A stretch of 64,000 nucleotides of DNA from an uncultured Sulfolobales archaeon (GTDB lineage Archaea; Thermoproteota; Thermoprotei_A; Sulfolobales; Desulfurococcaceae): positions 1 through 64,000 of the forward strand of contig CALIML010000003.1 in NCBI GenBank assembly GCA_938045475.1, given 5' to 3'. A model generated the notes under the pieces. It did no database searches, was not told where the DNA came from, and worked only from the letters and a program-made list of their open reading frames with translations. How positions within the stretch are numbered: position 1 is the stretch's first letter; each line of letters opens with the position of its first letter. Below are positions 27,201 through 32,706 of the stretch, one piece after another. The translations under genes were made by a program, and so were the position numbers.

Positions 27201-29453
27201 TCATCCTATGTATGTAGTTCCAGGTAAACGCTTCTCCTTCGTGATCCCTGTCTTCAAGTACTTAGAGAGAGCTTCGTACATTTCCACGAGATCCTTGCTA
27301 AGGCTTGGGGGCACGACATCGATTGCTTTAATGAAGTGCCTCATCTCGACAGTCTTCATATCTAAATGACCTTTATCCATAAATTCCTCTCTTAAAGCAA
27401 TCATAGCTGCCTCTCTACATACTGCAGCTATATCAGCTCCAGTATATCCATCAGTCTTCTTAGCTAATTCACTTAAATCTACGTCCTTTGATAGAGGCAT
27501 GCCCCTCGTATGTATTTTGAATATTTCTGCTCTTGCAGCAAAGTCTGGTGGGGGGACGTAGATGAGTCTATCGAATCTACCGGGCCTTAAGAGAGCTGGA
27601 TCAAGTATGTCTGGCCTATTGGTTGCAGCTATTACTACAACATTCTTCAACCTACCTATTCCATCCATCTCTGTGAGGAGTTGATTAACTATTCTATCAG
27701 TTACTCCACTATCGAATCTCCCTCCCCTTACTGGAGCTATGCTGTCTATTTCATCGAAGAATATTACTGTTGGAGCAACCTGTCTTGCGCGTCTAAATAT
27801 TTCTCTTACTGCTTTTTCGCTTTCCCCAACCCATTTACTTAGTACTTCAGGCCCTCTAACTGCTATGAAGTTAGCTCCGCTCTCAGTAGCTACTGCTTTA
27901 GCTAGTAGTGTTTTTCCTGTTCCAGGTGGGCCGTATAGAAGGATTCCCTTAGGTGGCTCAATGCCCATTTCCTCGAATACTCGCGGATACTTTAAAGGCC
28001 ACTCGACTGTCTCTCTAAGCTGCTGTTTTACATCACTTAAACCACCTATATCGCTCCAACGTACTTCAGGTATTTCTACAAATACTTCCCTAATTAATGA
28101 AGGTCCCACGCCCTTCATTGCTTCAACGAAGTCCTTCATTGTCACTTTTAGCTTCTGTAAAATGCTTGGCGGTATAGGCTTCGACAAATCTACTTTTTCT
28201 TCAGATATAAACTTCCTAAGGGCTATCATTGCTGCTTCCCTAACTAGTGCAGCTAAATCAGCTCCTGTATATCCATGAGTTATGTCAGCTAGCCTATCTA
28301 CATCTACGTCGTCAGCTAGAGGCACGTTCCTCGTGTGGACTAACAGTATTTCCCGCCTAGCTTTCTTATCTGGAGGCCTGATCTCTATTTCCCTATCGAA
28401 TCTACCGGGTCTCCTGAGAGCTGGGTCGAGGGCTTCAGGCCTATTGGTTGCTCCAATAACTACTATCCTTCCCCTCCCCTTTAGTCCATCCATTAGGGTG
28501 AGTAGCTGAGATACTACTCTTTTTTCTACTTCTCCAACAACTTCCTCTCTCTTTGGAGCTATGCTGTCTATTTCATCTATGAAGACTATTGCTGGAGCGT
28601 TCTTCTCAGCTTCATCAAATATCTCCCTAAGCCTTGCTTCACTCTCCCCATAGTACTTACTCATGATCTCCGGTCCATTTATGGCTATGAAGTATGCCCC
28701 TATTTCATTAGCTAATGCTTTAGCTAGTAGTGTTTTTCCTGTTCCAGGTGGGCCGTATAGAAGGATTCCCTTAGGTGGCTCAATGCCTAAGCGCTCAAAT
28801 AGTTCTGGGCGTTTTAGAGGCCATTCAACCATCTCCCTTATCTTCTGCTTAGCATCCTCAAGATCTCCTATGTCCTCCCACGTCACTTTTGGAATGCCCT
28901 TCTGCCTTTCAACAGCCTCCATGCTGACTGGCTCTCCCCTAATCACTAGCTCTGTTGACTCAGTTATGTAGACGTTGCTTGTGGGCTGAGTAGAAGTGAC
29001 TAGGAACTGTATTCTCCAATTGTATATCTCAACTGATATTACTTCCCCCTTAGATATGGGCTTTCTCATAAGTGTTTGCTTCACGTAATCCTCTAGATCC
29101 CTTAAGTCAGTTCCAACAAGTCTAGCTTCAATTGGAGCAAGCACTACTTTAGTAGCTGGCTCGACTTTAACAGGTCTTACTACAACTGCTTCACCTATCC
29201 CAGATCCTATGGCTCTCCTCAAGTTGCTGTCTAGCCTAACTATCTCCCTAAGCTCGTCGTCTGGTCTTAAGGGCCACGCTTGTGCAAGAATCTTCCCCTT
29301 AGGCCCCTCCACTTCAATAAAGTCCCCTGTGGATAGTCCAAGTCTATTCATTAAGCTACGGCTGATTCTAGCAATCTTTCTACCAGCATCACCTGGGTAG
29401 GCTTGCTCAACAGTTAGCTTTACTTCCCTCCCCTTATCACTCAATGAGTCCAC
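27201..29453 (-). CDS. cdc48: CDC48/p97-type AAA+ ATPase
   Basis: 750 residues: a CDC48 N domain (1-185) and two AAA+ domains, each with [13 protein letters not shown] (near residues 233 and 511). Walker B motifs are [12 protein letters not shown] and [12 protein letters not shown], with arginine fingers in RRPGRFDRE and LRPGRFDRL. The hexamer unfolds proteins and in archaea probably feeds the proteasome. The two AAA domains share long identical DNA stretches around Walker A. It is divergent from the KaiC-like gene at 29549. Confidence 0.97.
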
Positions 29454-29548: not shown

Positions 29549-30280
29549 TTGGTTGAAAGAGTTAAAACAGGTGTTCCAGGCCTAGATGAAGTACTTAATG
29601 GAGGTATTCCAAAGAGAAGCATTATCTTAATAGCGGGCGGCCCGGGCACGGGGAAGAGCATAATGGGTATGCAGTACCTGTGGAATGGGCTGCAAATAGG
29701 TGAACCAGGTGTTTATGTTGCATTAGAGGAGCACCCAGTTCAAGTAAGGGTAAACATGAGGCAGTTTAATTGGGATGTAAAGAGCTATGAAGCTAAGGGA
29801 GTCTTTGCCGTAGTTGATGCATTTACTGCTGGAGTAGGTGAAGCAGCTAAGAGAGAAAAGTATGTAGTTAAGGATCCAACTGATGTAGGAACTATAGTTG
29901 ATGTAGTAAGGCAAGCGATAAGCGATACTGGAGCTCAGAGAGTTGTCGTAGATTCAGTCTCAACTCTTTACTTAACTAAGCCTTCTATAGCGAGATCTGT
30001 TGTCCTTCAGTTAAAGAAGTTGTTAAGTGGAATGGGCACTACTTCAATGCTCATATCTCAAGTCTCTGTAACTGAAAGAGGCTTCGGAGGCCCCGGGGTA
30101 GAACACGCTGCAGACGGCATAGTCAGGCTAGATCTGGATGAAATTGATGGAGAACTCGTAAGGAGCTTAATAATTTGGAAGATGAGGGGGACTTCTCACA
30201 GCATGAAGAGGCACTTATTCGAAATATCTGATAAAGGCATAGTAGTTTATCCAGATAAAGTAGTCAAGTTAAAGACATAG
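29549..30280 (+). CDS. KaiC-domain ATPase, single domain
   Basis: 243 residues from TTG 29549. It starts [18 protein letters not shown], then Walker [10 protein letters not shown] (about 28-36), and Walker [13 protein letters not shown], with [16 protein letters not shown] as in archaeal KaiC-like proteins. The C-terminal strand-helix [11 protein letters not shown] is intact. These proteins are RecA-fold regulators of unknown target. It is divergent from cdc48 with about 95 bases between starts and may share regulation with it. A reverse gyrase pseudogene follows. Confidence 0.88.
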
Positions 30281-30289
30281 AGTGCTGGA

Positions 30290-31412
30290 ATCACCCCCAT
30301 TATTAGCGATTTTAAAGAGCTGCCGAGTAAGTACACGCTGAATCCTCCTACAGCTACTGGTATAGCCTATGGCCACGGTATTGTGCAAACATCCTTAAGA
30401 GAAGCATAGTTAAGTGCTGTAGTTCAATCGACAAGAAATTACATTATTGAAAGATTCCATGAGCATAAGCACGCAGAGCTCTGTATAGCTGTAAAGTATG
30501 TGGTAACGATAGGAGACGTTATTAGGCTAGAGCTGGATTATAGAGATCTTGAGGGAGTAGGCTCCCTTGAAGCTGAATTAGGGGGCAAAGCACTTGTAGA
30601 GCCAACTGGGGTCGTTGAAGAGGAAGTTAACCCACCTCCTTCCCATACTACCTTCATCAACTAGACTCATGGAGATAGCCCAGGAAATATGTTTAGGGAT
30701 GCGTTTAAGACAAGGACGCGGGTGTTGGAAGAGCTCATGAGGCTGTAAGGCCCGCTAAGCCTATAGATGCGGAGCTATTGTTGTATTTAATTCGAGAAAA
30801 CATCTTAGTTTTGCCAAAGCCCCTGACTGGACTTCACCTACATGTACGACTTAGTGTTTAGAAAATTCGTTTCAAGCCAGATAGTTCTAGCTATTGATGA
30901 AAATAGCTGCTGAATGTTAAATTCAATGAATTCTTAGTAAAGTCTGTAAAGGTTTACGTAGAGCTCCTCGTTGAGCCGGGCTTCCTTGAAATATGCAGCG
31001 CTATAGCCTTAAGAAGCCCCGTAGGGCGGGGCGAGCGCTATGCAACCTAGGAAAGTCCCCTGCATCTCCTAAAATTCCACGACATAGCTGAGTGGATGGA
31101 GGAGAACGGTGTTTGAAGGCAAAATACTTATGCCAAGATCATTTAAACTCTCATTGACGGAAGGTACATAAAACATCTCCTAATGCAAAGACCTTTCATC
31201 ATACTCAAAGGGCGTTCAACGTCATAGAGTTCTTCAATGAGGTGAGTGTTGAAACTATTAGGAAGCTCGGGGAATTAATGACGATGATTGAGGGGGACTG
31301 CAGACGTTATCATGATGTTCTAAAGAACATTTATAACGAGCTTGAAGTAAGTGTTCTAGGGGTTGATTCGAGCAAATGGTGGAGGAAAATCTGCAGGGAA
31401 GAGGACAAGTAG
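30290..31412 (+). pseudogene. Reverse gyrase remnant (topoisomerase IA half)
   Basis: Pieces in shifting frames follow the order of a reverse gyrase C-terminal half. They are IIERFHEHK; EEEVNPPPSHTT (30400-30663); LMEIAQEI; an RTW-like piece, then AHEAVRPAKPIDAELL (about 30740-30775); LPKPLTGLHLH; YDLVFRKFVSSQ (30845-30890); a VEPGF piece; and the tail VSVETIRKLGELMTMIEGDC to TAG 31412. The segment that should carry the catalytic Tyr (ITYHRTDS in the family) is missing. Several stops and frameshifts make the copy dead. The helicase half is absent. The last 37 bases overlap the next gene. Confidence 0.8.
31016..31032 (+). other. Short GC-rich hairpin inside the reverse gyrase remnant
   Basis: GCCCCG, a 5-base loop, then CGGGGC, preceded by AAGAA and followed by CAACCTAGGAAAGTCCCC. 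It resembles the hairpin blocks of the tnpB right ends at 22590 and 27110 and may be a small insertion. Confidence 0.3.
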
Positions 31413-32290
31413 ATGTAGATTATTTAGGGAAAAGCGATGCTGGAAGATATATAGCTATAGTTCACTGTAAAATAATAGCTTTTGCAAGAAAGAGAAATAT
31501 ACAAAACGTAATTAAGAACATTAGATTAGCTAAAAAGCTGGGGGCGAGATACATAATACTTCCCCCATTCTTTAACACTGGCCCAGTAGTGGGCATTAAC
31601 GGAGTTTCTGAAGAGACCTGCAGGAAGTTCTTTGAATTAACGTCTGATGAGACTACTAAAATAATAGCTGCGCTGGCAAGGCTTGAGAGAGTCAATATAG
31701 TGGTCTCCGGGTTCTTGGAGAAAGCTGGCGCATACCACTATATATCAAGTCTATTCATAAATTATGAAGGGAAGCTGTCAGCCAAGAGGAGGAAGTTAGT
31801 TGTATCAAGCAAGGAGACCGCCAATGGAATTAAGGCCGGTAAAAGCATAGACTTATTTAGGGTTAAGGGGCTGACCATAGGAGTAGTTATAGACGATGAA
31901 GTATATTATCCAGAAATAGCTAGAGTCTATAGAGTTCTTGGAGCAAGCGCTATGGTTGCTTCAATAAATCCACTGTATGTGAAATACTTAACGTTAAGCC
32001 ATATACTTAAGACTAGGGTGGAGGAGAACTCCCTGCCCCTAATGGTGCCGGGCAGCGTCCTCTACGTCAGCAACTCATTTAAGGGACTTGTTCCATCAAT
32101 GGTCTACCGCCGCGATGGATCAAAGATCTATGAGTATGAGGGCTCAGAGCAGAAGCTGATATTAGTGCCTTTAGAAATCCTCATTAGTGATGAAAAAAAC
32201 AACAACGATTTTGAAAGCTTAACTCATGTAGGTAAGATATACTTTAAGGCTTTAAAGGACTTGGGAAAAGTAGCGTTTACAGTTGAGTGA
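31376..32290 (+). CDS. Nitrilase-superfamily protein lacking catalytic Glu and Cys (pseudoenzyme)
   Basis: 304 residues from ATG 31376. The carbon-nitrogen hydrolase fold is traceable: IAIVHCKIIAF, GARYIILPPFFNTGP, SSLFINYEGKLSAKRRK and IGVVIDDEVYYPEIARVYRVLGASAMVAS. At the catalytic Glu (LPE in the family) there is Pro, and at the nucleophile Cys (ICYD) there is Asp; only the Lys remains. It therefore cannot work as a standard nitrilase or amidase and may be a binding or scaffold protein. It is followed 26 bases later by a small unknown gene, and both are probably one operon. Confidence 0.75.
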   Translation: MVEENLQGRGQVDVDYLGKSDAGRYIAIVHCKIIAFARKRNIQNVIKNIRLAKKLGARYIILPPFFNTGPVVGINGVSEETCRKFFELTSDETTKIIAALARLERVNIVVSGFLEKAGAYHYISSLFINYEGKLSAKRRKLVVSSKETANGIKAGKSIDLFRVKGLTIGVVIDDEVYYPEIARVYRVLGASAMVASINPLYVKYLTLSHILKTRVEENSLPLMVPGSVLYVSNSFKGLVPSMVYRRDGSKIYEYEGSEQKLILVPLEILISDEKNNNDFESLTHVGKIYFKALKDLGKVAFTVE

Positions 32291-32316
32291 GAATAGAAAT
32301 GTAAGCGGTGGTATAA

Positions 32317-32688
32317 GTGGATGAAGACATAGAGCTTAAGAAGGTGCTTCCAATAAGAGTTTCCTCACTCAATGACTTAGTTAGAATAGCTGTTACATAC
32401 ATGACTCCACCAATGCAGTCAGTCTTCTTACTTAAGTTTAGGGATAGGGAGAGATTAGTTGTAGGAATGCTTGGCTTATTTAGAGACTACTACAAGTTGT
32501 ATGGCTTACCGGTGCTGTACTACCATGTGTGCGGCAGCGTGGAGGAGGAAAAGATCGTTCAAGCAAACTACATAATTGTATCAAGCAGTGATGAAAGGCT
32601 GGAGTTCAGCAAGGTGGCTAAGCCGGGGGTATCAATTCCGCTAATTGAATTACGTACAAAGCCTCCAATAATTCCAGATCTTGATTAA
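32317..32688 (+). CDS. Small conserved-looking hypothetical protein
   Basis: 123 residues from GTG 32317. It reads as an alpha/beta protein (VLPIRVSSLNDLVRIAVTYM, VFLLKFRDRERLVVGMLGLF, LPVLYYHVCG) with no membrane segment or metal motif. I do not recognise the family. It lies close behind the nitrilase-like pseudoenzyme and is convergent with the transporter gene, so the two plus-strand genes may act together. Confidence 0.6.
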   Translation: MDEDIELKKVLPIRVSSLNDLVRIAVTYMTPPMQSVFLLKFRDRERLVVGMLGLFRDYYKLYGLPVLYYHVCGSVEEEKIVQANYIIVSSSDERLEFSKVAKPGVSIPLIELRTKPPIIPDLD

Positions 32689-32706
32689 GGCGGAGGACTT
32701 ATCAGT

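Follow-up and report, generated by a model that had tools for sequence, protein, structure and literature searches.

Decay of a TopR1-like reverse gyrase in a genus of the Sulfolobales, probably displaced by a horizontally acquired third reverse gyrase

Introduction

Why does a member of the Sulfolobales carry the ruins of a reverse gyrase between a KaiC-domain gene and a nitrilase-like gene? Reverse gyrase is the sole protein found in all hyperthermophiles, and the reason why Crenarchaeota keep two of them is, to our knowledge, unsettled. The stretch of DNA analysed here, called the window, comprises 64,000 nucleotides (contig CALIML010000003.1, positions 1 to 64,000) of the genome G000. A preliminary description of the window had noted a decayed reverse gyrase beside a nitrilase-like pseudoenzyme, and had offered loss of one paralogue in the lineage or a shift in growth temperature as explanations. 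Here we ask which copy was lost, in which order the events took place, and which enzymes are left.

Results

The remnant and its lesions

No long open frame was found between the stop codon of the KaiC gene and the start of the nitrilase-like gene (Table 1). Frameshift-aware alignment of the interval to the intact reverse gyrase of the complete genome G004, from the same family, gave 154 identical residues out of 343 (45%) at a score of 476, compared with a mean of 37.6 and a maximum of 54 in 100 dinucleotide shuffles; the minus strand scored 33. The alignment contains seven frameshifts and in-frame stops at positions 31048, 31114 and 31144. Approximately 73 residues are gone from the remnant, among them GRVQTP and the motif with the catalytic Tyr, ITYHRTDST, which falls in an alignment gap. 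The motifs from which the decayed gene had been recognised in the preliminary description, NPPPSHTT, AHEAVRPAKPID, YDLVFRKFVSSQ and VSVETIRKLGELM, were all recovered in three forward frames of the interval, and the segment reported as missing is indeed the one with the catalytic Tyr. The span given there, 30290-31412, does hold the remnant, but the alignable part begins at about 30346 and not at 30290.

In tblastn, intact reverse gyrases of this locus type matched the region with sum E-values down to about 1e-30, while the genome's own reverse gyrases reached about 1e-5 at best. Together with the shuffles, these E-values rule out chance resemblance. A remnant of topoisomerase III was also rejected, as the best tblastn E-value of that protein in the region was 0.34. 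For the helicase half of reverse gyrase no match was found in the window (score 40, the level of the shuffles). A functional reverse gyrase has an SF2 helicase fused to a topoisomerase IA; here this fusion is absent, the Tyr motif is deleted and the frame is broken. Judged from the alignment and the phylogeny below, the interval is almost certainly a pseudogene of a TopR1-like reverse gyrase.

Table 1. Features of the locus in the window, and intact topoisomerase IA genes elsewhere in the same genome (G000, contig C15).
Feature	Position	Strand	Evidence
CDC48/VAT-type AAA+ ATPase, divergent neighbour anchoring synteny	27201..29453	-	Locus comparison
KaiC-domain protein (thermo_KaiC_1), intact	29549..30280	+	NCBIfam TIGR03877, 431.9 bits
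TopR1-like reverse gyrase pseudogene (almost certain), topoisomerase-half remnant	30346..31394	+	Frameshift-aware alignment to G004 residues 849-1269; tree
Pseudogene fragment, after the missing GRVQTP through NPPPSHTT (G004 residues 895-968)	30440..30652	+	tblastn, frameshift alignment
Damaged stretch of pseudogene, frameshifts and deletions taking out ITYHRTDST	30653..30720	+	Frameshift alignment
Pseudogene fragment AHEAVRPAKPID ... YDLVFRKFVSSQ ... WMEENGV-stop-RQNTYAKII-stop-TLIDGRYIK; frameshifts near 30841 and 30905; three in-frame stops	30721..31173	+	tblastn, frameshift alignment
C-terminal tail of pseudogene, final part also kept in sister species G001	31174..31394	+	Frameshift alignment, G001 comparison
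Nitrilase-like protein, CN_hydrolase fold	31376..32290	+	Pfam PF00795, E 4e-17
Conserved 123-aa protein without family	32317..32688	+	Equal position in G001, G003, G004
TopR2-like reverse gyrase, intact, Zn2 complete	C15:18858-22433		
Clade-C reverse gyrase, full length	C15:119127-122708		TIGR01054, 1212 bits
Topoisomerase III	C15:123224-124465		Domain

Identity of the lost copy

In G004 the order of genes is CDC48, KaiC, an intact reverse gyrase of 1270 aa (1347 bits against TIGR01054), the nitrilase-like gene and the 123-aa gene, the reverse gyrase occupying the same place as the pseudogene. Across the order, it is the copy directly preceding the nitrilase-like gene that recurs. In a tree built on 310 columns, only those covered by the remnant, the remnant and the locus copy of G004 were sisters (99/85) inside the TopR1-like clade of the family (100/100). 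The terminal branch of the remnant measured 1.47, that of the intact G004 protein 0.19. The full-length tree agreed on the clade. The mark of TopR1-like enzymes is that the second cysteine of Zn2 is often lost or that Zn2 carries inserts, while TopR2-like enzymes keep Zn2 strictly (PMC6878951). Among the intact members of the clade with the remnant (clade A), part have lost the second cysteine or carry inserts, and Zn2 is kept by all members listed for the second ancient clade (clade B, TopR2-like). The criterion was read on the intact clade, the Zn2 region being deleted in the remnant itself; the dead gene is thus called TopR1-like because the tree places it in a clade with the published mark. 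By tree and synteny, the remnant is orthologous to the TopR1-like reverse gyrase.

Two other sources were considered. A recent duplicate of the genome's own intact reverse gyrases is excluded by the tree and by alignment scores of 187 and 136 against 476. The lower of these, 136, belongs to the TopR2-like copy, which has its intact orthologue in G000 and is not the source of the remnant. The translated, frameshift-aware comparison proposed in the preliminary description hence came out in favour of a TopR1-like origin.

Two side observations concern intact relatives. The locus reverse gyrase of G003 (L035:1747-1890, G003:C35) is intact but for one in-frame TAA between its two halves, which may be a sequencing error or loss in progress. 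The TopR1-like genes G043:C1:1345485-1349633 and G053:C1:598820-602956 (open frames of 1465 and 1406 aa) contain in-frame inserts that the family model does not match and that may be inteins or long insertions.

Neighbouring genes

The tail of the pseudogene and the beginning of the nitrilase-like gene overlap, as reverse gyrase and nitrilase-like gene also do in intact relatives. The nitrilase-like protein keeps its fold but lacks, as judged by eye, the catalytic Glu (ILPPFFNTG) and Cys (GVVIDDEVYYPE) of the family, in the window as well as at L036:7317-8267 and L163:8327-9226, which agrees with its earlier designation as a pseudoenzyme. Across the order it accompanies the TopR1-like reverse gyrase, and it stays where that gene is lost (G040, G063, G064, G075). 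Since it outlasts the reverse gyrase, the protein may have an independent role. The 123-aa protein had no match in Pfam or NCBIfam; its gene adjoins the nitrilase-like gene in G001, G003, G004 and G027.

Intact reverse gyrases and clade C

A search of the remaining genome, as suggested at the outset, found three other topoisomerase IA genes, all intact: a topoisomerase III and two reverse gyrases, one TopR2-like and one of a third clade, here clade C. Both reverse gyrases have Walker A, the Tyr motif and Zn2.

Clade C was found in 10 of the 214 genomes of the order, at identities of 51-100%, and all other listed reverse gyrases of these genomes are at most 44% identical to it. The holders are G000 and G001 in the window's genus, G027 in the same family, G047 and G160-G163 in genus g27, and G040 and G063 in genus g20; the MAGs AUK086, S9B1_HD70 and ex4484_217_1 are further members of the clade. 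Within clade C, monophyly of the copies from the window's family was rejected (p-AU 0.009), and so was monophyly of those from family f2 (p-AU 0.036); both results argue for horizontal transfer. The gene of G000 and G001 lies directly behind topoisomerase III, in a conserved block of thermosome, rpoK-like gene, ORF and topoisomerase III (gene names assigned by eye from the sequences). No reverse gyrase match was found beside this block in G004, G018, G006, G002 and G038. Clade C was likely acquired horizontally, judging from its patchy occurrence, phylogeny and position. Full-length trees placed it outside both TopR1 and TopR2, beside a sequence from Bathyarchaeota (SH-aLRT 94 and 88), unlike the 310-column tree, where it came near some TopR1-like copies. 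In the open literature, outside of which most subscription journals lie, we found neither a third crenarchaeal reverse gyrase nor a linkage of KaiC and nitrilase genes.

One further sequence deserves mention. The second-type reverse gyrase on G003:C87 (L073) is almost identical to that of G039 from another family; the contamination of G003 is 7%, and the gene is probably a contaminant of that assembly.

The sister species and the order of events

The sister species is represented by the MAG Sulfolobales archaeon SKYB35 (G001, contig JANXDZ010000001.1). Here only 353 unaligned bases are left from KaiC to the nitrilase-like gene, and KaiC itself, intact in the window, is broken by three frameshifts and one stop (L034:6150-7000, G001:C12). 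TopR1 residues 6-94 (score 109, shuffle maximum 44) and approximately 1213-1269 (score 100, shuffle maximum 47) are kept, while nothing of the TopR1 middle was found between KaiC and the nitrilase-like start (score 40). The two remnants are therefore complementary: the window retains the topoisomerase half without the N-terminus, and G001 both ends of the protein. It follows that the common ancestor possessed the topoisomerase half as well as the two ends, and that the large deletions postdate the split. The loss of one paralogue, as had been supposed, is thereby confirmed independently in a second species, and the paralogue is the TopR1-like one. As clade C occupies a shared site in both genomes and the deletions came after the split, the gain of C probably came first and the loss of TopR1 later. 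Clade C is accordingly taken, from these comparisons, to have been gained from a different phylogenetic source before the TopR1 deletions; an early point lesion common to both species could have preceded the gain.

The decayed locus of the sister species also bears on the quality of the data. The window comes from a metagenome assembly of 24 contigs, 89% complete, and an assembly or base-calling artefact hiding a gene intact in the organism could be suspected. There is hardly any chance of this, given ten lesions plus a lost helicase half, the long terminal branch, and the decay of the same locus in the independently assembled G001, which led us to reject it.

Between the two species, window positions 31226-32697 share 87% DNA identity, and both retain the final 150 bases ahead of the nitrilase-like start. 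This retention could mean that the 3' tail of the pseudogene has a function, e.g., as a leader that regulates the nitrilase-like gene. We regard this as quite improbable, since a position so near the downstream gene and its promoter would by itself account for the retention.

Discussion

The most likely reading, held with good confidence, is that the TopR1-like gene was displaced by the horizontally acquired clade-C reverse gyrase. Ancestors of the window's genus would have had a TopR1-like and a TopR2-like enzyme, as most of the order does. A third reverse gyrase, clade C, would then have been gained by horizontal transfer behind the topoisomerase III gene. Its presence would have made TopR1 dispensable, and the decay would have proceeded through large deletions, frameshifts and stops, of which at least the deletions would have arisen independently in the window's species and in SKYB35. 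The pseudogene itself would be inactive, and the clade-C and TopR2-like enzymes, both intact, presumably provide positive supercoiling. That clade C caused the redundancy and substitutes functionally for TopR1 is plausible, as far as gene content and order of events can tell.

The distribution of the genes in other genera bears on this in several ways. In genus g20 (G040, G063) clade C is present and no TopR1-like gene was found, nor was any TopR1 remnant found beside the nitrilase-like gene. Five clade-C holders, G027, G047, G160, G161 and G163, have kept three reverse gyrases; the link between clade C and TopR1 loss is thus not strict, as G027, of the same family as the window, has C and keeps its TopR1-like copy. 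G064 (C1:1223270-1226854) and G075 (C1:810292-813888), of genera g36 and g38 in family f6, have a single reverse gyrase each, TopR2-like by tree. Being without TopR1-like gene and without clade C, they indicate that clade C is no precondition of TopR1 loss.

A simple loss of a dispensable TopR1, with the TopR2-like enzyme sufficing and clade C unrelated, is accordingly a serious though less probable explanation. Sulfolobus islandicus can do without topR1, topR2 being the more important gene (PMC6249222), and G064 and G075 live on a TopR2-like copy alone. Nevertheless, among genomes of the family that are at least 95% complete the TopR1-like gene is kept, it is missing in the genus with clade C, and clade C predates the deletions, as its shared site and the lineage-specific deletions indicate.

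A move to lower growth temperature, with clade C incidental, is unlikely to account for the loss. We compared 16S G+C on 1489 shared alignment columns in 18 members of the order, with G001 standing in for the window's genus, as no match to a 16S rRNA gene was found in the G000 assembly. G001 had the lowest value, 64.2%, and the highest was 67.7%; the second lowest, 65.1%, belonged to G040 from genus g20, also without TopR1-like gene. However, 64% is still thermophilic, G000 retains two intact full-length reverse gyrases, G064 lost its TopR1-like gene at 67.3%, and the differences are small and given as raw values without phylogenetic correction. The shift in growth temperature suggested earlier is thus not established. 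It is not needed for the loss of TopR1, and a modest one is possible. As a side observation, the 16S rRNA genes of G047, G027 and G001 (L202, L203, L204) span 2.0-2.4 kb, which indicates introns.

More tentatively, and with somewhat less than even confidence, displacement by clade C may be generalised. Clade C could be a third, horizontally mobile reverse gyrase lineage of Thermoproteota that has entered the Sulfolobales repeatedly and displaced TopR1, at least in the window's genus and in g20, with three-copy intermediates still living. If so, a hallmark enzyme of hyperthermophiles would be exchangeable at the level of paralogues, and finding out which copies are replaceable and which are not would put the functional division between TopR1 and TopR2 to the test. 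A dead TopR1 beside an intact TopR2 and a probably foreign third copy is a natural experiment on the replaceable function. A word of caution also follows, as growth-temperature history should not be read from one lost reverse gyrase gene.

Compared with known systems, the remnant corresponds to the crenarchaeal TopR1-like reverse gyrase (Catchpole and Forterre, 2019; PMC6878951) in orthology and in the Zn2 mark of its clade, but differs from it in being a pseudogene that has lost both the helicase half and the catalytic Tyr motif. An extra, horizontally acquired reverse gyrase has been described in Aquifex and Hydrogenivirga (PMC6878951), where, as here, a copy from a second source stands beside the native one. 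In the Sulfolobales, by contrast, the native TopR1-like gene decays after the gain, and three-copy intermediates exist.
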